Positions 3,001 to 62,362 of a stretch of 62,362 bases of DNA are shown here, piece after piece. This stretch comes from a virus. The stretch covers positions 1 to 62,362 of IMG/VR virus record IMGVR_UViG_3300009146_000015, one strand, 5' to 3'. Position 1 is the first letter of the stretch. Each line of letters opens with the position of its first letter. The position numbers and the translations under genes were made by a program. The notes below the pieces were generated by a model. It did no database searches, was not told the DNA's origin, and saw only the letters and a program-made list of their open reading frames with translations.

Positions 3001-4666
3001 TCGGACCCGACGGCAGGCCCTCGGTGACGAAGTCCTCCATCGCCGCCCGGACTTCGGGGATTTCGGCGGCGAAAGTTAAATCCAGGGGTTGGTTACTTTC
3101 AGAAGTAACCTCTGGCGTTGTAGCGGGCGCAGGCGCAGCGGCGGGCGCGGCAGCTTCCGGCTCGGTCAGCAGCTCGACGTTCGACGTGGTGTCCGCAACC
3201 GGGGTCGAAGTCGACGGCTTGCGCTTCGGCGTCTCGATGATTTCAGTGGCGCTCGGCGCTCCGGGTACCGGCTTGATCGGCGGCGGTGGCGCAGTGCCGC
3301 TTGCCGGAACGCCGGGCGCGGCAGCATTGTCGGAAGGTTCAGGCGGTAGCGGCGGAGCGGGGCGCGCGCCCTCGGTACCGATTGGCGTCGGTGCCGGCGG
3401 ACCGCTGCTCTCACCAGTCAGCGCCGCCACCAGCGCCGGATCGACGCCGGGGGGCAGGCGATTGGCGGGGGGTTCTGGCGGCAGTGGTGGCGCAGCACCA
3501 GCTTTTGGCGGTGTCGCCGCTCGCTTCTTTGGCGGGGGCGCAGCCTGGCGCGAGGTCGTAGCGCCACCGGGCGACGATGGCGCTTCATAAGGCGACCACG
3601 GTGCACGTTCGACGGTCTGGTCGGGGACGGTGATACTCGGACCGGGCGGTGAGATCGGCGGGCCGACTTCCACGTCCTCCGGGATTTCCGGAAAACTGAA
3701 CGGCCCGTATTTCTCACGGGGAGAGCGAACGTCCTCGGTCTCCTCGATATCGACCGCACCCGGACGACCTTCGGGGAAGACGCCAGCACCAGCGCCAAGC
3801 ACGCTGCCGATCACGCCACCGGCCAGCGCCGCCTCGACCAGACGCTGGTCGTCGTACTCTTCCTGCAGCCCGGTCTCGACGCGGGTTGCCTGCATCGCCA
3901 GTTCTTCAGCGGTGTTCTGGATCGCCTCCTCGCCGCCCGACTGTCCCATTGCCGAGCCGACGCGGCGGATCAGTCCCTTGCGCGCCTCGCCAGTTACCGC
4001 ACCGGCAGTCCCGCGCTGGCCGATCTTGGAGACGATCTGACCGCCAGCGCTGAACCTCGCCAGCGCCGCGGTGACTACGGCAAGAGCGATGGGCTTGGCT
4101 CCGACCGCCAGCCGCTTGAACTCGCGCCGCGCCTCCTGCGGTGACAGGCCCCCGGCGATCAGCGACTGGTAGAGCTTGTTGCCGTCAAGGTTCTGGTTGT
4201 CCAGATCCTTGACCATGTCGTTGTAGGTGATGCCGGCACTGTGCACTCCGGCCAGGCCGGAGTTGAGTGCCAGCGCTACCGTAGGTCCCGAGACGATCGC
4301 GGCGGCGACACCGGCAGCGATCGGTGCGGCGGTGTTGGCGGTGTTGAGCAGCAGGTAGTCGAACTTGTGGTTCCAGAACGTCTCATCGCCGACCCTGGCC
4401 GACATGATCCGCTGCGCTGCCGGAGTGTTGGCGCCGCGGATGTCTTCACCCAGCTCGAACAGACTGTCAGCCAGTCCCTGCGATATATACTCGAGATCGC
4501 GCGCCATCGGGCTGTCGCCCTGGCTGGCGCCGTAAGCCACCATTGAAGGGACTGACCCGGCAAGGTCGGTGACGCTAGCAACGGCAGTGCGGCCGACGTC
4601 GCCCCAGGTCGCCCCCTGAGCTGCCTCCCGTCGTTGCGCTAGGCGTTCCTGTAATGCACTGGCCAT
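1..4666 (-). CDS. Giant polyvalent virion protein, N-terminal part (runs off the left edge)
   Basis: An open frame starts at ATG 4666, 2 bp after the stop of the 1590-aa virion protein gene, and stays open for about 1555 codons to the window edge. The N-terminal few hundred residues have hydrophobic and small-residue-rich helical stretches, followed by long Pro/Ala/Lys-rich disordered segments and charged coiled-coil-like segments. Near the left edge the protein reads GYVVLNDRLF followed by VTESILHE, the usual lead-in to a zincin-like HExxH helix of large polyvalent proteins. From about position 172 leftwards the reading changes to HEIEKL and no longer matches that family. The right-edge fragment supplies the expected HEFVH continuation, so I infer that the two are halves of one protein of about 2,700 aa. 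The probable role is an internal or ejected virion protein. Confidence 0.75.
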   Translation of the reverse strand, partial: MASALQERLAQRREAAQGATWGDVGRTAVASVTDLAGSVPSMVAYGASQGDSPMARDLEYISQGLADSLFELGEDIRGANTPAAQRIMSARVGDETFWNHKFDYLLLNTANTAAPIAAGVAAAIVSGPTVALALNSGLAGVHSAGITYNDMVKDLDNQNLDGNKLYQSLIAGGLSPQEARREFKRLAVGAKPIALAVVTAALARFSAGGQIVSKIGQRGTAGAVTGEARKGLIRRVGSAMGQSGGEEAIQNTAEELAMQATRVETGLQEEYDDQRLVEAALAGGVIGSVLGAGAGVFPEGRPGAVDIEETEDVRSPREKYGPFSFPEIPEDVEVGPPISPPGPSITVPDQTVERAPWSPYEAPSSPGGATTSRQAAPPPKKRAATPPKAGAAPPLPPEPPANRLPPGVDPALVAALTGESSGPPAPTPIGTEGARPAPPLPPEPSDNAAAPGVPASGTAPPPPIKPVPGAPSATEIIETPKRKPSTSTPVADTTSNVELLTEPEAAAPAAAPAPATTPEVTSESNQPLDLTFAAEIPEVRAAMEDFVTEGLPSGPITPEIEALIRDRLTKMRERFGVEAPPPIAVPDTAPTAGPELAEAPAPPAKGKRGKKAAPPPAATAELAAEPWMSNDERQAAIAEAEANLAAEPEPVPDKQTPRAREILSIPKRKGKKPKGKAKKPLTTATGTVVEKIKRRRTGPVPGKLPPIDTSKLPIARPKAPEAKPKAPKRIPAVAYIGPIKEARGIYEGGSHNQARARVVDENKLKDKDMVQSATYYDGFVIDGKFHRILESKDEEDIAERRATSRAMEKKIGTSVRGLRTTEVVRRRKELELLERIGEPEAAAEATAELKNLPPPVDTNTGETARNAAVVERADEVFDRHAKKAQDPKDIDGQKRRIAAIAADVDRVRAAGKKEFGPKFQFPKKYRTKGLKGTHSWLVDAIKLDRIVNKNSRPFPPKMLEEWLAAESELRDARAAGRTDVDPSRERAQEQGKSRQRTKEKPAAADQASPEMTDVEIAEDVEYSEATGEPIPYNADFEAERRAHRAEPPPKPRDDSMRAQERKDEGRNVTGLVAHNDMQAALKRLRSKFARLGKAVPPWLKVKSDTELTPRQVKLRATRARQEHERFVTALAAREARMAEDKYYRENPKEVRPQTDAERKAAAQRRVSMEKATARAKEKTTAKLAALAEKERLRKEEEDASPEAAAKAFAEQQQKRFAGVTSRRGGRGLMKMAKAISDKSTGTANTFVNNSQKAVEQSASRQLNDLWEIARKGKAQAPRQPNRDIGVVDTKADAAIVKEIEKIPLHTVSDENEVNIDVDELLEIEPDEETETEGETETEAELNEPLPDFEPPAAKKGTVGAEEARERREAGPEGGWLASPYIPGGRTFSRILQDSNVRDMLAELKLGDAARGVKGRKSALTFLKNRLTSAIGDMKVYVVSDADLRNFLGGQYSVAPGEMYDGIYVHMRDESTPGEGYVVLNDRLFNHDSQRVTESILHEIEKLIDAHHLLGASVHCRARLKVDRRPYLSVLHGYADGDGPLDQALATGALEYEFVG
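173..196. repeat. 24-bp edge repeat, left copy
   Basis: CTCGTGGAGGATGCTCTCGG then TGAC, identical to 62282-62305 and in the same orientation. Both copies encode TESILHE on the minus strand. This is the best candidate for the true overlap joining the two window edges. Confidence 0.7.
3092..3109. promoter_or_regulatory. Palindrome site 1 (perfect core)
   Basis: GTTACTTTCAGAAGTAAC, inside the giant polyvalent gene; it encodes VTSESN on the minus strand. Confidence 0.7.
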
Positions 4667-4668
4667 CG

Positions 4669-7600
4669 TCAGTTACCGGTTGGTGGCGCGATCGGATGCA
4701 GGCGCTTGTACTCCTCGGGGGTGGTGTACCTGTCTTCCATCTGCTTCTTCCACACACTTGGCGGGGGTGGTAGCGCCAGCGCGTCGCCAACCGCCCCGCC
4801 AATATCGACTGCGACCTCGCCGACATTAGCCATTGCTGCAGCCAGCCAGTCGTCAAGGTTGAGCTCACCCGGCTGCGGCTGCCTGACGATCTTCTTGACC
4901 AGCGGGTCGAGCATCTTCTCGACGAACCCGGGCTGCGCGGCTTCGGCTTCCGGGGTGACCGGACTGGTCGGCAGGGCGCCAGTCGTCACCTTGGTGGCGT
5001 AGCTGGCAGCGCCCATATCGATGTAGCGGTCGGCGTCTTCCCGCCACGCCTGTGCCAACGGATCGAACATCGAATTGGGGATGTGACGGATCGCGCCATC
5101 CGGCCGACCCTGTCCGTTCAGCGGCTGCACCAGCATGACCCCGGGGTTGTTGGGGTGCGGCCACGCCCGCCAGTCCGGCACGGAAGGATTGGCCGGATTG
5201 GCGAGGACCATCTCCGACGCCAGCTTGATCGCCGACGGCATGGACGAGCCGTTGGTCTTGGCGATTAGCTGTGCAGCATCGCCGATCAGCGTCTGCTGGT
5301 TTCGCAGCTGCTTCGCCTCTCCCTTGGTCAGCGGGGCTTCCTCGTCCGTCTCCAGATCGCTGATATACTTGTCGACATCATCGGTAATGCCGACAACCTC
5401 CTCCTTGTAGAGATCGCGCGGTACCGGCTCGATCGCCGCGAGCTGACGGTCGAACTCGGTCGACCGCTTCGTCCGCAGTTCCTTCCACGCCTCCTCGGCC
5501 CGTTCCGCCTTGTAAAGCAGGTTCTTCTGATACTCCTCGGGTAGGCCAAGCAGGCTGTCAGGGTTGAAGCTCGGCTTCGGCGGCATGTTGAAGCCGTCCG
5601 GACCATCGCTCGGACCGGGCGGCAGGACCGGCTGCAGGGCCGGCGCCAGCCATGGACGCTCCTGCTGCGCCCGCACGACCGGGCCCTCGTCGCCCAGCCA
5701 GCCACCCTGAAGCCCGGTCGGCGCGCCAGAGCCTGCCGGCTTCTCTTCTGGCTTGGCACCCGCCTGCCGAACCAGCCAGTCGTAGTACGCCGTCTGGTGC
5801 TGTGCCAATTCGCGATTGTAGGCGGCAACGTCCTGCTTGTTCTTTGCCTCCGACAGGTCGAGGCCGAACGACGGATCCCGCGCACTGGTTGCCTTGTACA
5901 GATCGATGTCGGGCGGTGGGCCAAGCCCGAACGTCTTATCCTTGCCGGGCGCGCGGACACCGGGTGCAACTTCCAGAGGCTTACTTTCAGAAGTAACCAA
6001 CTTGTCGCTGCCGATCAGCGTATCGTCGCTTACGTCACTATCGACGTCGAGCGCACTGGTCGGCTTGGGTGCTGCTGGCGTAGCTGCCGGCGTGGCAGGC
6101 GTGGCCGCTGGCGTGGCTGCCGGAGCTTCGGCGGGTCCAAGTATCTGCTCGACGGTTTCGCGCTGTGCAGCCGCCGCAGAGCCGCCTGTGGTATCGGTCC
6201 AGATACGGACGCTCTCGTTGAACGCCGTATTGTAGATCTGCTGCTCGTCACCGTCGAGCTCTGCCGTCGCCAGCGCGTTGTAAGCTGGGCGCTGGTCGGG
6301 CGGCACGGCGTCGAGGTCGGCCAGCAGCTTGGTCAGCTGCGGCGACGCCTCGGGCAACTCATCCTCGCCTGCCGCCTTGACGAGGAACTTGTCCACGTCG
6401 CCGGGCGACATGTTGAGGATCATGCCGGTCATCTCTTGCGGCGTCAGCACCTTCTCGGTGATGACCTTGCCGGTTTCCTCGTCAGTGTAGCGCACCGTGT
6501 AGCCGGTGGTGGCGTCACCCTGCACGTCGAAGTCCCGACCGTCGGGGATCTGGGCGTAAGCTTTGACCGCCGCCTCGACTGCCTTCTCAGTGTCGCCTTC
6601 GCCAAGCGCCGCCTTGGCAATCGCCGAGTACTGGTTGTAGCGGACCTGATTGTACTGAATGTATGACGCAGCGATTGCCGCGGCCTTCTCGGGGTCGCGC
6701 AGCACCCAGTATCCGTACAAAAGGCCAAGGGTCCGCTGGTTGAGCTCACTCTCGGTCAGCTCGACGTCGTTCTGCTCCGCCCACGCCCTGACGACGTTCT
6801 GTGCCTGGGCGACCTGCGACTGACCCATGGCGTACTTGCCAGTCAGCTTGGCAGTGGCGGCGTCGGGCATGTCGTCGTCCGGCGCGGCATCTTCCGCCAG
6901 ATCGGTATCGTCGACGCCCTCGCCGAACAGGACGTTCGACAGCCAGTTGCTGCCGGCCAGCGCGCCGCGCTTGCCGTCGGTAAAGGTGTCGTTGGCAGCC
7001 TCGCGCCCGTCCGGACGCCTGACATGCCCGGTCGGTCCGATGTCCCACGCGTCAGTGACCTCGCGTATCGAGGTCTGGGCCGGACCCAGTTCGTTGTCGC
7101 CAGCCGACTGACCGACAAGAGCGTCAGTAGCCGCTGCGCCCTGCAGTGAAACACCTTCCTCGCTATCGCCGGGATTGAGGACGCTATCCTCGACCGCCCG
7201 CGCTCGACCAACACCTTCCTGCAGAGTACGTTCGAAAGCTCTGGTTGCTACATCCGGATCAGTAGCCGTGCCGAGAATGCTCGAACGGTAATCCGACGTC
7301 CGCTTGCCGATCTCAGCCGGCCCCATCACGTCGTCGACCGCACCGGTCGGACGCGCTTCGACCGGGCGAACGGTCTCGGTCGGCGTGTAGCTACCGGTGC
7401 CGCCAGTGGCGTGCGACAGCTGCTGGATCTTGACGTCGAGCGCCTGCATCATGGCGTCGCGGGTTGCCGGCGGCATGGTCAGATCGGCTTCGACCTCACG
7501 GCGGCGATTGAGCGCCCGCTGCAGTTCGGCTTCCGGCTCGTCTGAAGTCGGCGTGTAGCTGTCGGGCGGCAGCGCGCCGGGTCCGCCAGCTGGACGCACC

Positions 7601-35537: not shown

Positions 35538-35570
35538 TGCTCGATGTGCCTCCTCCATAGGAGTAAGCAA

Positions 35571-35831
35571 ATGAACATTGCTACAATGGTCGGCACCCCG
35601 CGCAAGCGGGCTGACGACGGCTTCGCCTTCTGCCCGGACAATGGTCCGTCCCGGCTGATCCGCTATGATCTGCCGTGGTCGGATTTTGGGCTGGTGGCGG
35701 CGCTCGACTTCGACCAGAACCTGTTGCGTGTCTGCCGTGAGCTCTACGACGAGCTTAGCGAGATGCAACAGCACATCGTGCTGAAGACCCGTGATGAGTT
35801 CACCTACCTCAAGGATCTGCAGCAGTACTAA
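35571..35831 (+). CDS. Small early protein (86 aa)
   Basis: ATG 35571 follows ATAGGAG by 8 bases. The sequence opens with a basic patch (TPRKRADDGFAFCPDNG) and continues into an acidic helical part (LLRVCRELYDELSEMQQHIV). It is probably a small soluble protein. The following 79 bp before the next palindrome hold no clear gene. Confidence 0.5.
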   Translation: MNIATMVGTPRKRADDGFAFCPDNGPSRLIRYDLPWSDFGLVAALDFDQNLLRVCRELYDELSEMQQHIVLKTRDEFTYLKDLQQY

Positions 35832-35976: not shown

Positions 35977-36216
35977 ATGAAACTTCTTACACCGACGTTC
36001 ATCGAGGACATTCTCGAACGGGCAGCGCAGATCGAGAAGATCTACGATGCCCTCACCCCCGAGCAGAAAGCGGAGGTCGATGCCTATAACCAGCGCCTCA
36101 TCGCCGCGGCGGAGAGTGGTGATCCCAAGCAGGTTGCTGCCCTGCCAGTCAACCCGATGCTGGCATACATCGACGCTGCCGAGGATACCGCCATGCATCT
36201 CGGACAAAAGCTATGA
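35977..36216 (+). CDS. Small helical early protein (79 aa)
   Basis: The start ATG 35977 is set by the leader repeat. The protein is helical and acidic: FIEDILERAAQIEKIYDAL, then EQKAEVDAYNQRLIAAAESG. It ends in an ATGA overlap with the next gene. The pattern of two amphipathic helices suggests a small dimer; function unknown. Confidence 0.55.
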   Translation: MKLLTPTFIEDILERAAQIEKIYDALTPEQKAEVDAYNQRLIAAAESGDPKQVAALPVNPMLAYIDAAEDTAMHLGQKL

Positions 36217-36407
36217 GCGTGTTCTGGTTCGCCAAAGGCGGTAGCAAGGCTGGGATCTACTCCATCGGCCTTGGCAATATCGAGGTCGCAGTGATCACTG
36301 CTGGCACCGATGAGCAGGCAGCGCAGTGGGCGCAGGTCTGCACCCGGGCGCTGAACGAGCACGAGCGCAAGCTGCGCCGGCTGGCGGAAGAGCTGGACCC
36401 CGAGTGA
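36213..36407 (+). CDS. Small early protein (64 aa)
   Basis: It is coupled to the previous gene by ATGA. A beta-hairpin start (VFWFAKGGSKAGIYSIGLG, then IEVAVITAG) is followed by a long helix (EQAAQWAQVCTRALNEHERK). No motif recognised. It directly precedes the tandem paralogue cluster but shares no visible similarity with it. Confidence 0.5.
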   Translation: MSVFWFAKGGSKAGIYSIGLGNIEVAVITAGTDEQAAQWAQVCTRALNEHERKLRRLAEELDPE

Positions 36408-36429: not shown

Positions 36430-36702
36430 ATGGGCTGGGAAATCAACCATCTCCCTGCCGGCTGGCGCCGCCCGCCGCTGCTTGAGAAGTGGTTCGGGGA
36501 GAAATTCCCGAACATGGAGTTCGTCGTCCGGCGGTTCAAAAGTCACCGCGACGGGCAGAGCTATGTCAGCGTCAAAGCGGTGGTCAGGGGCAAGCCCAGT
36601 CACTTGCTCCTCCATCGCCACATCCCGCTAACCGAGCTGGCGTCGGTCGACGGCCAGCACCTGATCGTGAGCCAGCTATGGCTAGTGCAACCGACCCCAT
36701 AG
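36430..36702 (+). CDS. Tandem paralogue A (90 aa)
   Basis: First of three tandem genes of about 90 codons. Helical N-terminal half (LLEKWFGEKFPNMEFVVRR), then strands with basic residues, and the family ending SQLWLVQP. It starts at ATG 36430 after GGAGTTCCGTG. The last 25 bp overlap paralogue B. Fold and function are unknown; the spacing and shared ending show descent from one ancestor. Confidence 0.6.
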   Translation: MGWEINHLPAGWRRPPLLEKWFGEKFPNMEFVVRRFKSHRDGQSYVSVKAVVRGKPSHLLLHRHIPLTELASVDGQHLIVSQLWLVQPTP

Positions 36703-36950
36703 GGCTGCATCACTACAATCGTTGGCGCGTTGCCGATCAACTGGAGGAGAAGCTCCGTCCCATGTTCCCGACCTTGTACTGCAACGTGCAACCGGCGCCA
36801 GAGATCGGGTTCGTGGTTGTCAAAGTTTCCCAACGCGATCCGGTTTATGGCGTTGGTGCCAACTACGTGTTCGAGAATACCGAGAGTGTGTACGGGTTCC
36901 CGAATGAATTACTGGTGGCACGGCTATGGCTAGTACAACCAAATTCATGA
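36678..36950 (+). CDS. Tandem paralogue B (90 aa)
   Basis: ATG 36678 is read in another frame from within the codons for the LWLVQP ending of paralogue A, so that CTATGGCTAGT encodes LWLV in one frame and starts MAS in the other. The N-terminal helix (RWRVADQLEEKLRPMFP) aligns with the helices of A and C, and the ending ARLWLVQP is nearly the same as in A. It overlaps paralogue C by 25 bp. Confidence 0.6.
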   Translation: MASATDPIGLHHYNRWRVADQLEEKLRPMFPTLYCNVQPAPEIGFVVVKVSQRDPVYGVGANYVFENTESVYGFPNELLVARLWLVQPNS

Positions 36951-37207
36951 AGGGCGCAAAGCCCGGCTGGGGTGTCGCCCAGCAACTCGCCAGCCGGCTC
37001 AACAAGGAGTGCATGGGTCGACTGTGGATCAGTGTGTATAGCGAGTACAGCCCCGATACCAACGTCGAAGCCTACCACATCATCGCCAAGCATCCGACGA
37101 CCGGTGAGCCCCGGTTCCGGCGCCTGGTCACCACCAACGAGCTCTTATCAGAGGAGGGCGTCGAGCTGCTGATGACGCAGCTATACTTAGTTGAACCACC
37201 CACATAG
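36926..37207 (+). CDS. Tandem paralogue C (93 aa)
   Basis: It begins, like B, on ATGGCTAGT inside the previous gene. The start MASTTKFM resembles MASATDP of B. The helical region is VAQQLASRLNKECMGRL and the ending TQLYLVEP is the diverged family signature. The stop codon overlaps the palindrome at 37207, which separates the cluster from the MoxR-type gene. Confidence 0.6.
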   Translation: MASTTKFMKGAKPGWGVAQQLASRLNKECMGRLWISVYSEYSPDTNVEAYHIIAKHPTTGEPRFRRLVTTNELLSEEGVELLMTQLYLVEPPT

Positions 37208-37239: not shown

Positions 37240-38382
37240 ATGAGACTGTCAGACCTACGGGACGTCCTCGTGGCGTTCATCGATGCGGGCATCGCCGTGG
37301 TGGTCGAGAGCCCACCCGGCCGCGGCAAGTCGACCTTCATGGAAGACCTGATCCAGTACTTCACCCATCGCGACGGCTACACGTGGGGCTATCAGGCCAT
37401 GTTCATGGCCACCCAGACGCCGACCGAGATGCAGGGCTACCAGTTCAAGGGTGAGCGCTGGTGGGACGACAACGGCAAGCTCGTCAAGCCCGGTACAAAG
37501 GGCGTGGAAGCGACGGCGGTGACCGAGCCGTCTCTCCCGCCGTGGATGCTGTCGAATGAAGGCAAGCCGATCTGGGCCTATCGCAGGGGCATCCTGGCGC
37601 TGGAGGAGTACGGGCAGGGCGAGGCCGACGTCAAGCGGGCGACGGCACAGCTCCTGCTCAAGGGCGAGCTTGGGCCGTTCCGCATCCCCGGCTTCCAGAC
37701 TGGCGACGGCTGGGGCATCGTCGCCCTGACCAACGGATCCGGTGACCGCTCCGGCGTGACGAAGAACTTCGACTTCGTCATCAACCGGGTGGCGTGGATC
37801 AGGCTGACCGACGACATCGTCGGCACCGAGACGGCGCTGATCAAGCGTAACGTTTTGCCGGCACTGGTGGCGTTCGCCCACCAGCATCCCGAGGTGGTGC
37901 TCAGCCCCGGCGTCCCCGAGAAGCAGGGACCGTGGATGACGCCGCGGACGCTCGAGATGACGTCGAAATTCCTCACTCAGTGGCGGAAGGTCAACGGTGA
38001 GGACAAGGTGCCGACCACGGGCGTCACCATGGAGGCGATGGCGGCAATGATCGGGCACGAGGCTGCGATGAGCGTCCTCAACTTCATCCGCCTCGATCAG
38101 GAGATGCCGACCATCGAGCAGATTGTCGCGGCGCCGGACACTTGTGCCATCCCGGACAGCCTCGATGCCCGCTACCTGATCTGCTACTCGCTGGCGCATC
38201 GCGTCACCGAGAAGAATGCCGAGAAGGTGCTGATCTATGTCGATCGGCTCGGCAAGGAATTCAGCGTCACCTTCGCCAAGGCGGCATGCGGTCGCCTGCC
38301 GATGCTGGCGCTGACCCCCTCGTTCACCACCTGGGCGAAGGGCAACTCCAGCCTGATGGCGCTGATGCAGCAGTTCAAGTGA
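37240..38382 (+). CDS. MoxR-type AAA+ ATPase (380 aa)
   Basis: Walker A ESPPGRGKST lies at residues 23-32, Walker B GILALEEYGQ at about 117-126, and a sensor-like ALTNGS follows, the layout of the MoxR/YehL group of AAA+ proteins. The C-terminal part is helical. Genes of this type are nearly always paired with a VWA-domain protein, and one lies three genes downstream (39595). Family knowledge: the pair remodels or loads cofactors into protein complexes. In a phage the target is unknown. The gene follows a palindrome and a TAGGAGA leader, and is closed by two hairpins. Confidence 0.8.
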   Translation: MRLSDLRDVLVAFIDAGIAVVVESPPGRGKSTFMEDLIQYFTHRDGYTWGYQAMFMATQTPTEMQGYQFKGERWWDDNGKLVKPGTKGVEATAVTEPSLPPWMLSNEGKPIWAYRRGILALEEYGQGEADVKRATAQLLLKGELGPFRIPGFQTGDGWGIVALTNGSGDRSGVTKNFDFVINRVAWIRLTDDIVGTETALIKRNVLPALVAFAHQHPEVVLSPGVPEKQGPWMTPRTLEMTSKFLTQWRKVNGEDKVPTTGVTMEAMAAMIGHEAAMSVLNFIRLDQEMPTIEQIVAAPDTCAIPDSLDARYLICYSLAHRVTEKNAEKVLIYVDRLGKEFSVTFAKAACGRLPMLALTPSFTTWAKGNSSLMALMQQFK

Positions 38383-58684: not shown

Positions 58685-61600
58685 TCACCGGGCGTTGTAG
58701 ACGCCTTGAGCCCTCTCTAGCACATAACGGTTGGCCCGGGTCGGCCGAACACCGCTTTCCATCTCCTCAATTTCCGACGACCGCCGGCTGGTGTAGGCCC
58801 TCAACGCAGCATTAGTCAGCTGTGCATCCTTCGGCTTACCGCGATTGAAGCGCTCGATCCGGCCTCGCATGCGGACACGCTCTCTGGATGAAGCGTCAGC
58901 CCATGCCCGCTGCAGCTCTCCCCGCTCCTTGTTGATGGCAGTCTGGCTGGCGTAGAACTGCGCCTTGAGATCCTGATCCTCGGCCTCGCGTTCCGGTGTG
59001 GCACCGAGCACCCGGATGAACATCTCCGAGAACGAATAGGGATCCATCGACGGGCGACCGGTGCGGGTCTCCTTGCCGAACGCACCAACGTCAACGGCTT
59101 TAATCAGATCCTTCAGCGCCTTGACCGGCGCCAGTTTCGGCAGCGCTGCCGAATAGTCACCGTCGATCAGCTCCCGTGCCCCTTGCCCGTAGTCGTAAAG
59201 CATCATCCCGGGCGCGCCGATCAGCATGTCCTGCAGCCAATTCTTGACGTCCTCGGGATCGCCGGAAGTCGGCTCGCGGGCAAGGAACATGTCGGCCATG
59301 CCGACGCGCTGCGACATGTCGAACGCCAGCCCGAACGGCAGGGCGCGGGTGATGCCACGGGTGACGACTTCACCCAGGTCGGGCCCTAGCAGGTCCGCTG
59401 CCAGTTCACGTTCGGCATTCTCGAAGTCCTGCCAGCTGAACGGCACGCCCAGCATCTGCAGTCCGAGGACCATCGCCTTGATCGGCTCTGTCGGCAGCCC
59501 GAGCGTGCCGGCCATCAGAGTGTGAGTGGCGGCGATATAGGCCAGCGACTTCAGCGCCTCGGCGCGATCGCCGGGGCTCTCGTTGCGCCACGCCCGGCCA
59601 ATCTGTTGACCGAGCAGCTGGTACATGGCGTGACCGAAGCGCTTGAACTGGAACGTCACCTTGAGCAGCGGGTGATTGAACAGTCGGGGTGCGTTAACCT
59701 CCGAATAATTGAAGTTGGTCATGTTGTTGGTGTCGTCGGCGTACTGCAGCGCGGCTTCGTGGTTGCCGCCATTGGCCGCGTACTCGAGCCGATATGCGGC
59801 GAGCAGGACGGCAGCGCGGTTGATCGCCTCGGCCGACGACGGCATCTGCCGGGTGATCTGCTCCAGCCAGTTGAGCGCGGTATCGGTTGCTTCCAGCGAT
59901 TTCGCAGCGACGCCACCCTGCGGCCGGCGCAGCCGCTGCCGTTTGGAAATCTCCAGTCCGCCGCGGAAGTCGAGGAACTGGAAGACCTCAGCCTCGCGTT
60001 CGAGTATACCCGCGCGACTGGTTAGGTCCTCGATGAAGGTGGCGCTTTCGGCATCCGGATTTTTCGCCTTCTTCCACGTCTCAACGGCCCCACGCTTGGC
60101 CATGTCGAGCGCGCCAATATCCTTGTAAGCCTTGCCAAACGCCCGCACCGTCGGCGCTACCTTGTGGCGAGCAGCAACCACCGGCATCGACACCATGCTG
60201 ACCTGCATCAGGTTCATGATGGTGTACATCGGCGAGCCGAGCCGAGCGACGAACGAAGCGGTAAGGATGCGGGATACGAATGGCGAGTACCACTGGCTGT
60301 CGTGGACAAAGCCGTTGCCCTTGTCGACGCGCTTGACGACTTCGTTCCAGATCGCCCGCCGCCCGAGCGCCCCGGCACGATGACCAGCGTCGATCGACTG
60401 CTGGCCGTCACGCATGACCTGGTTGAGCTCCTGCGCGTGCTCCAGACGGGCGAGGTAGCTGGCCGTACTGTCAGCGTAGTCGATCATCGCCCGGGTGATA
60501 TCCAGCGACGCGCCGCTGACGCTGCGGCGTGCGATCCGGCGCTTGTGGACGCGGGTCGAGCTCATCATCTGCAGCCCGAACTCCTGCGCCGCCAGACGGA
60601 GCTGGTTCTGCATCTCCTTGGGCATATCCTTGTAGCCCTGCCGCTTCTCCAGCGACTTGATCATCAGGCTGACGTCGGCAGACGAGATGTCGATGCCGCG
60701 GTCGCCGGGCGACCACTGGCGCTCCTGCACACCCTCGACGCTCTCAACGTCGGGGTCACTCTCCAGCTCATGGGCTTCCCGGAGCGCCGTCGCCTTGTCA
60801 TCGAAGAACTCGACGTGGTCCTCCTGCACCTCGGTGCGGAACACCCGGACAGCGCCGGGGTCCTTCATCGTGATCTTGACGCGGCTGCCCGGTGCCTCGC
60901 TGTCGTCAGGCAGAATGTCCCAGCTCTCGCCGGTTTTCTCGTCGACGGTGGTGCCGCTGACCCAGGCTTTTTCCTTGGTCGCAGCGGCGTATTCCATCGC
61001 CCGCTCGCGGGCGTCCTTGCCGCGGAACTCGTAGACGTTGGTGGTACCCTCCTTGAGCGTCCCCTTGAGCCGGGCAGCGGGCGCGGCAACCTTGAGCTTG
61101 GCCCGCACCACCCACTTGCCGCGCCGCATCAGCGGGAAGTACGGCCCGAGCATATGGTAGAGCTCCTTGGCCCGGACGATCCGGGTCAAAAGCTCGGGGT
61201 TGCCCTTGAACAGCGCCTTGTCGGCGTCGGTCATCTCCTTGCCGAGGATGCGATCGACCAGCCCCTCGTCGATATCCTTAGCGTCGATCTCGCCGCGGAA
61301 GCCCTCGACCAGCATGTTGTGCACCAGAAGGTGCGACATCAGGAACTGGCGCTCGCGCATGAAGTCATGCAGGTCGTGGCGGAGCTCGTCGAGATACGGC
61401 GCTGCGTCGATAATCTCGGCATACTCGCGCGACAGCTCGGCATACTTGGCCCGCGCCTGCACCCCCTTCAGCGTCGGATTGCCAACCGGGTCCTTGCCAA
61501 GATGCGTCTGGGCGGCAAGCGGCTGGTCGACGAAGACGTTGGCGTTGGTCTCATCGTTGATCAGCTGGGCGAACCGCGACCACATCTCACGCCCGGCCCG

Positions 61601-62362
61601 CTTCTCGGCATGCACCATGCGGTCGATCAGCGCCTCGGCCATCTTCTGATTACGATTGGTCTGCCGGATGATGTTGGTCAGGATCCGGTAAACCCGCCGC
61701 ACCGGGTTGTCCTTGCTTCTCCAGTAGCGGTCGGCAGTGCGGGCGAGCTGATCGAGCCCCGCCAGCATCAGCGCCTTGGGCACCCGCATCTGCTCCTGCC
61801 GGCCCTCGCCCGTGTAGCTCTCGTAGATATCGCGAGTGACGCGCCTCGCGGTCTCACGTGGTGAAATCTTAGCGTGGACAGTGACCTCGCTGTCCCGCGC
61901 TGCCGCTGCCGCCGTCTCCGCTTTGGCGGTCAGGCGTTCGGTGGCATGCATCACCGCGTCGAGCACCGACAGATCGTTGCCAAGCTTGCCGATGGTCTTA
62001 CTTACGAAAGTAACAAATGCCTGCCACGCGTCCGCCAGCGTGCCGCGCTTGATCCCCAGCTGCCGTGCCATCCGCTTCGACAGCGGGGTGCCGGCAAGCA
62101 GCTCCTGGAATGCCGGGTTGCTCATCGCTTCGGCGACGAACTCGAACACGTCGTTGAAGCCGTAGTGCTTGGACGGATCGACGATGCCGTGGTGGCGGAT
62201 AACGTCGCCCATCAGGGTCTCAAGATAGGCCCGCAGGCGCGGATCGCGCTTGATCCCGGCGATTGTCGCTCCGTGCACGAACTCGTGGAGGATGCTCTCG
62301 GTGACCGCCTCGACATCCACAAAAAACAAAAGACAGAGCAGCAACAACAAAAACACACCAGA
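58685..62362 (-). CDS. Giant polyvalent virion protein, C-terminal part with zincin and LPD38-like domains (about 1200 aa)
   Basis: The frame is open from the right edge; GTG 62356 lies in an odd T/G-rich stretch and is probably not a true start. ILHEFVHGAT at 62267-62296 is an HExxH zinc-protease-like helix, followed by NDVFEFVAEAMSNPAF, a conserved companion segment. The C-terminal 500 residues, with NAPRLFNHPLLKVTFQFK and RFGHAMYQLLGQQIG, are the large-polyvalent-protein-associated domain 38 pattern. Proteins of this kind are virion components injected with DNA. I infer that this is the rest of the gene that starts at 4666. A palindrome copy is embedded at 61997. Confidence 0.75.
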   Translation of the reverse strand, partial: SGVFLLLLLCLLFFVDVEAVTESILHEFVHGATIAGIKRDPRLRAYLETLMGDVIRHHGIVDPSKHYGFNDVFEFVAEAMSNPAFQELLAGTPLSKRMARQLGIKRGTLADAWQAFVTFVSKTIGKLGNDLSVLDAVMHATERLTAKAETAAAAARDSEVTVHAKISPRETARRVTRDIYESYTGEGRQEQMRVPKALMLAGLDQLARTADRYWRSKDNPVRRVYRILTNIIRQTNRNQKMAEALIDRMVHAEKRAGREMWSRFAQLINDETNANVFVDQPLAAQTHLGKDPVGNPTLKGVQARAKYAELSREYAEIIDAAPYLDELRHDLHDFMRERQFLMSHLLVHNMLVEGFRGEIDAKDIDEGLVDRILGKEMTDADKALFKGNPELLTRIVRAKELYHMLGPYFPLMRRGKWVVRAKLKVAAPAARLKGTLKEGTTNVYEFRGKDARERAMEYAAATKEKAWVSGTTVDEKTGESWDILPDDSEAPGSRVKITMKDPGAVRVFRTEVQEDHVEFFDDKATALREAHELESDPDVESVEGVQERQWSPGDRGIDISSADVSLMIKSLEKRQGYKDMPKEMQNQLRLAAQEFGLQMMSSTRVHKRRIARRSVSGASLDITRAMIDYADSTASYLARLEHAQELNQVMRDGQQSIDAGHRAGALGRRAIWNEVVKRVDKGNGFVHDSQWYSPFVSRILTASFVARLGSPMYTIMNLMQVSMVSMPVVAARHKVAPTVRAFGKAYKDIGALDMAKRGAVETWKKAKNPDAESATFIEDLTSRAGILEREAEVFQFLDFRGGLEISKRQRLRRPQGGVAAKSLEATDTALNWLEQITRQMPSSAEAINRAAVLLAAYRLEYAANGGNHEAALQYADDTNNMTNFNYSEVNAPRLFNHPLLKVTFQFKRFGHAMYQLLGQQIGRAWRNESPGDRAEALKSLAYIAATHTLMAGTLGLPTEPIKAMVLGLQMLGVPFSWQDFENAERELAADLLGPDLGEVVTRGITRALPFGLAFDMSQRVGMADMFLAREPTSGDPEDVKNWLQDMLIGAPGMMLYDYGQGARELIDGDYSAALPKLAPVKALKDLIKAVDVGAFGKETRTGRPSMDPYSFSEMFIRVLGATPEREAEDQDLKAQFYASQTAINKERGELQRAWADASSRERVRMRGRIERFNRGKPKDAQLTNAALRAYTSRRSSEIEEMESGVRPTRANRYVLERAQGVYNAR
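61997..62014. promoter_or_regulatory. Palindrome (perfect core) inside the giant polyvalent gene
   Basis: CTTACTTACGAAAGTAAC encodes FVSKT on the minus strand. Confidence 0.65.
62282..62305. repeat. 24-bp edge repeat, right copy
   Basis: This copy has the same 24 bases as 173-196. To its left the coding sequence continues as a normal zincin domain; to its right the window ends in a 57-bp stretch that turns into A/C-rich low complexity. Confidence 0.7.
62319..62362. other. Low-complexity right edge
   Basis: The last 44 bases are A/C-rich (AAAAAACAAAAGACAGAGC and CAACAACAAAAACACACC) in a genome that is otherwise GC-rich. This is unlike any other coding region here and may be an assembly or read-end artefact. 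Confidence 0.5.

Follow-up and report, generated by a model that had tools for sequence, protein, structure and literature searches.

Three small genes that lie one after another on the plus strand of a phage genome, here called A, B and C, are best read as paralogues in tandem that belong to a single orphan family of small phage proteins, in which a duplicated unit bounded by a short repeat carried an ancestral overlap with it, an overlap that a related phage, L001, has since lost. We would put the probability of this evolutionary account at roughly two in three. The best explanation of the overlap is that it came with the duplicated unit; it is neither a product of chance nor a strictly preserved feature. 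The window, by which we mean the whole 62,362-base virus record that was analyzed, encodes tailed-phage head, head-tail adaptor/portal, terminase, internal virion protein, helicase, primase and family A polymerase genes. Judged by the polymerase, its nearest annotated relatives are the Rhizobium phages RHph_TM (44% identity) and Pseudomonas phages such as KPP25 (31%).

As Table 1 shows, the three genes stand directly ahead of an AAA ATPase gene. The coordinates were re-read and agree with the sequence-only reading: the ATG codons at 36430, 36678 and 36926 are spaced 248 bp apart from A to B and again from B to C, the last bases of the stop codons are 36702, 36950 and 37207, and each overlap is 25 nt. 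At each overlap the downstream gene lies in the -1 frame. The usual spacing within this operon is a 4-nt ATGA overlap (for example at 36213/36216, 38999/39002 and 39337/39340), and the 25-nt overlaps are a local exception among these neighbors.

Table 1. Positions in the window of the three genes, their junctions and the gene downstream.
Feature	Position	Strand	Remarks
Gene A	36430..36702	+	90 aa, first copy; L001 orthologue 5407-5673, 43/88 aligned residues identical
Gene B	36678..36950	+	90 aa, middle copy; not found in L001
Gene C	36926..37207	+	93 aa, third copy; L001 orthologue 5677-5967, 53/90 aligned residues identical
A/B overlap, 25 nt	36678..36702	+	end of A and start of B
B/C overlap, 25 nt	36926..36950	+	end of B and start of C
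Junction repeat GCTATGGCTAGT, copy 1	36675..36686	+	
Junction repeat GCTATGGCTAGT, copy 2	36923..36934	+	
Diverged third junction-repeat copy GCTATACTTAGT	37180..37191	+	end of C; ATA instead of ATG; Leu codons CTA, TTA
AAA ATPase (phrog_1297)	37240..38382	+	downstream of C; syntenic in L001, 78% identity

Both junctions carry the same 12-nt repeat, the first nine bases of which are confined to these two places within the window; a search of both strands of the window found no further occurrence of GCTATGGCT. At 36676 and 36924, CTATGGCTAGT is read as LWLV in the frame of the upstream gene and as MAS from the ATG of the next. The dual reading proposed earlier thus holds, while the placing of LWLV at the very end of the proteins does not; the motif lies near the end, A closing with LWLVQPTP, B with LWLVQPNS and C with LYLVEPPT.

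All three genes look protein-coding by codon usage. The log-odds per codon in the annotated frame are 0.14 for A and 0.18 for C, and for B they are 0.12 outside the overlaps and 0.00 over the whole gene, while both alternative forward frames score -0.31 or lower in each gene. A start for B further upstream in its open frame is ruled out, since by codon usage that frame is non-coding across A. Inspection by eye found no X XXY YYZ heptamer in either overlap of the kind that a programmed frameshift fusing A, B and C would use.

The sole other carrier of the family that we found is L001 (IMGVR_UViG_3300009678_000062), which was reached through the ATPase at 37240 and has an A orthologue and a C orthologue directly upstream of its own ATPase gene. 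Gene B was sought in the L001 record and was not found, so that the variable copy number anticipated in relatives is seen, with two copies there and three in the window. The two L001 genes do not overlap; the TGA of A is followed by 3 nt (GCT) and then by the ATG of C. Measured against L001 as the one known relative, dN/dS is about 0.35 for A (dN 0.49) and about 0.25 for C (dN 0.36), with dS high and imprecise in both cases, and these values indicate purifying selection on A and C. Both genes evolve faster than the neighboring ATPase, for which dN is 0.16. Beyond L001, no member of the family was found in viral contigs, bacterial genome contigs or PDB sequences, nor by tblastn in annotated phages and plasmids, and none was detected in the whole genomes of five phages with a related ATPase or polymerase. 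The DNA of the region has no match in the phage collection, and the family profile returned nothing below E 0.04 from Pfam or PHROGs.

Gene order around the array also differs between the two phages. A conserved small gene (LIRYDLPWSD..., 68% identity; 35544-35831 in the window, 5138-5404 in L001) lies directly before A in L001 and two genes away from it in the window, which shows that genes have been inserted, lost or moved there. Two further small genes, at 36213-36407 in the window and 4711-4950 in L001, have ends that are weakly similar by eye and stand in a different gene order; tblastn gave no match between them at E 0.05.

The history of the overlap is suggested by what lies at the start of C in L001. 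In the alternative frame that an overlap would use, the reading at position 5675 is LWLVSP-stop. When all six frames are considered in both the window and L001, the pattern L[WYF]LVxP occurs six times, five times at the ends of family genes (in the window at the three gene ends only) and once here, the only instance outside a family member's own end. When synonymous codons were simulated for MARFTVKDARHP with the codon usage of both phages, LWLVxP arose, given the protein sequence, with a chance of ∼1e-3 (about 1 in 1,000), and LWLVxP with a stop within four codons with a chance of ∼5e-4 (about 1 in 2,000). The hidden LWLVSP-stop has the appearance of a relic, left by an upstream gene whose end formerly ran across the start of C. 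On this evidence the overlap is probably older than the divergence of the two phages, with a later loss in L001, and copy number and overlap are therefore not fixed. A conserved context of the start site, combined with an N-terminal MA that is itself conserved, could also explain the remnant. The inherited overprinting proposed in the sequence-only reading gains from the hidden motif, which suggests a former overlap in L001, and loses its strict form, as the overlap is absent there. A second, weak clue comes from the end of C, where no gene starts and where the junction position uses the rare codons CTA and TTA (2.6% and 0.9% of the leucine codons in the window); this choice would fit a former junction role, with two codons as its whole extent. 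A stretch at the start of A in L001 (CTATGGAAAGTCACC) was considered as a possible leftover junction repeat and dropped, because 152 of 140,554 positions score equally well.

The order of events, loss in L001 as opposed to gain in the window, is read from two genomes, one 7-codon remnant and codon choice, and the reverse order is the strongest competitor, although we judge it unlikely. On that account the non-overlapping arrangement with two genes, as in L001, came first, the overlap seen in the window arose when a short stretch was deleted between similar sequences at the end of A (GCTGTGGTTGGT) and the start of C (GCTATGGCTCGT), and a later 248-bp duplication made B. L001 does have two genes and no overlap, and the two sites lie 28 nt apart in it and share 9 of 12 bases. 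However, this order leaves the LWLVSP-stop at the start of C in L001 as a coincidence (∼5e-4 to 1e-3), and B does not have the look of a recent copy; it is nearly equidistant from A and C of the window, with 24 identities to each, and is nearest to C of L001 (31/84).

In the favored account, with an ancestral overlap, the boundary of the duplicated unit would be the C-terminal (Q/R)L(W/Y)LVxP, the DNA of which in the window also supplies the start codon of the next copy in the -1 frame. Duplication of such a repeat-bounded unit would deliver a daughter copy that automatically overlaps its neighbor by the same 25 nt, and the equal spacing would thereby be explained. In L001 the overlap may have been resolved by loss of B, with its last codons left behind, or alternatively through a duplication of ∼28 nt at the A-C junction. 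Both routes fit, and the data favor neither over the other.

The paralogy itself very probably holds, with its support coming mainly from the shared C-terminal motif and with similarity between the protein bodies at the edge of what can be detected. The three window genes and their two L001 counterparts all encode proteins of ∼90 aa that end in L(L/I)(V/M/L)x(Q/R)L(W/Y)LVxPxx. The profile alignment that had been suggested was run and upholds the relationship, with P = 9e-8 for A and C, 1.5e-5 for A and B, and 2e-4 for C and B; most of this signal comes from the ending L(L/I)(V/M/L)x(Q/R)L(W/Y)LVxP. When the last 16 residues are removed, the pairwise comparison of A and C falls to chance (p = 0.35 to 0.92), in agreement with the strong divergence of the bodies noted from the sequence. 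Such a result would also be expected if A, B and C were unrelated small genes sharing only a copied short C-terminal or junction sequence, and B, as described below, gave no usable structure prediction. Several observations nevertheless make that account improbable. Without the last 16 residues the body of B still resembles C of L001 (Z 6.1) and A (Z 4.7), and A and C of L001 resemble each other (Z 3.5), the remaining pairs being at or near chance. Further, the C-terminal stretch that they share (LLVAQLWLVxP) extends beyond the repeated DNA, and conserved W and L positions occur outside it. We read this as an old duplication followed by strong divergence, with homology over the whole length less than certain.

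With regard to function, A, B and C are most likely accessory proteins of the phage that form an orphan array, expanded by tandem amplification and translated together with the AAA ATPase, function and co-translation being what we infer from the arrangement. The three proteins would be made together from one message. They may be small, compact binding proteins, whose partner could be one of their own number, the ATPase or a host enzyme and whose bodies diverged toward different targets or positions. Taken alone, a hetero-oligomeric or partner-binding function is a tentative suggestion, which we hold to be possible at best. Among gene pairs that overlap or lie close together (-8 to +10 nt), those encoding subunits of heteromeric complexes are enriched, and the same spacing has been linked to coupled translation (PMC10666635). 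The 25-nt overlaps fall outside this range, both for termination-reinitiation and for enrichment in complexes, and its extension to A, B and C would be by analogy. More speculative still is a self-propagating overlap, in which the C-terminal motif also provides the next copy with its start site, duplicates arrive already overlapping and placed for co-translation with their parent, and the array expands and contracts to yield diverged subunits of one hetero-oligomer; we regard this combination as doubtful. The downstream ATPase and a peptidase-like gene were considered as a clue to function and set aside, because relatives of the ATPase occur without detectable A, B or C (among the five phages above).

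Structure prediction gave for C an alpha-beta-beta-beta-alpha model from an alignment of five sequences (mean pLDDT 78, pTM 0.66), and for B a model that is not usable (pLDDT 46.6). The weak structural matches of the C model do not fix a function. A role for the three proteins in host takeover, as inhibitors of the same kind as T7 Gp1.2 (a dGTPase inhibitor), is a functional proposal compatible with the evolutionary account and is very improbable. Among PDB structures the C model matches the T7 Gp1.2-dGTPase complex best (E 0.067, prob 0.96, TM 0.46/0.51), Gp1.2 homologues are also among its viral structural matches and the sizes are similar (∼85 aa for Gp1.2, with a layout like that of C by weak fold match), but Z is only 4.7 and is equaled or exceeded by unrelated proteins, profile comparison with seven Gp1.2 sequences is negative (P 0.086 over 7 columns), the invariant Gp1.2 residues YSG and DxDV are without counterpart, and the gene neighborhood is a different one. 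The Gp1.2 sequence profile showed no similarity to the A/B/C family either, with no alignment beyond 8 columns.

Two known arrangements are comparable. Same-strand overlapping pairs of prokaryotes and phages (PMC3887535, PMC10666635) likewise have terminal overlaps and, as is usual for ATGA pairs, place the downstream gene in the -1 frame; their overlaps are of 1-8 nt, in contrast to the 25 nt found here, which moreover are repeated because the genes themselves are duplicates. In the Rhizobium phage RHph_TM3_14A, a run of short, diverged, adjacent genes with a shared short motif also lies upstream of the same kind of ATPase (L003, 192-3353). There, however, the motif is AMLLG, nothing matches the A/B/C profile and no 25-nt overlap is repeated at identical junctions; by these comparisons the run is another tandem small-gene family with no sequence kinship to A, B and C. 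A search of the literature at the level of titles and abstracts found no earlier description of tandem paralogues that overlap in this way. The array is a compact natural case that couples gene duplication with gene overlap, and its relative L001 seems to preserve the state that followed loss of the overlap. With more relatives, the case would bear directly on how overlaps are made, copied and resolved, and on whether overlapping paralogues stay together because their products assemble.

Two other features of the window may be recorded. At the end of the record, a 1223-aa open frame on the minus strand (58685-62356), which is probably incomplete, matches the C-terminal part of very large phage proteins, one of them annotated as DarB-like antirestriction. 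Finally, the window carries a single tRNA-Leu with the anticodon CAG (3980-4069, minus strand).
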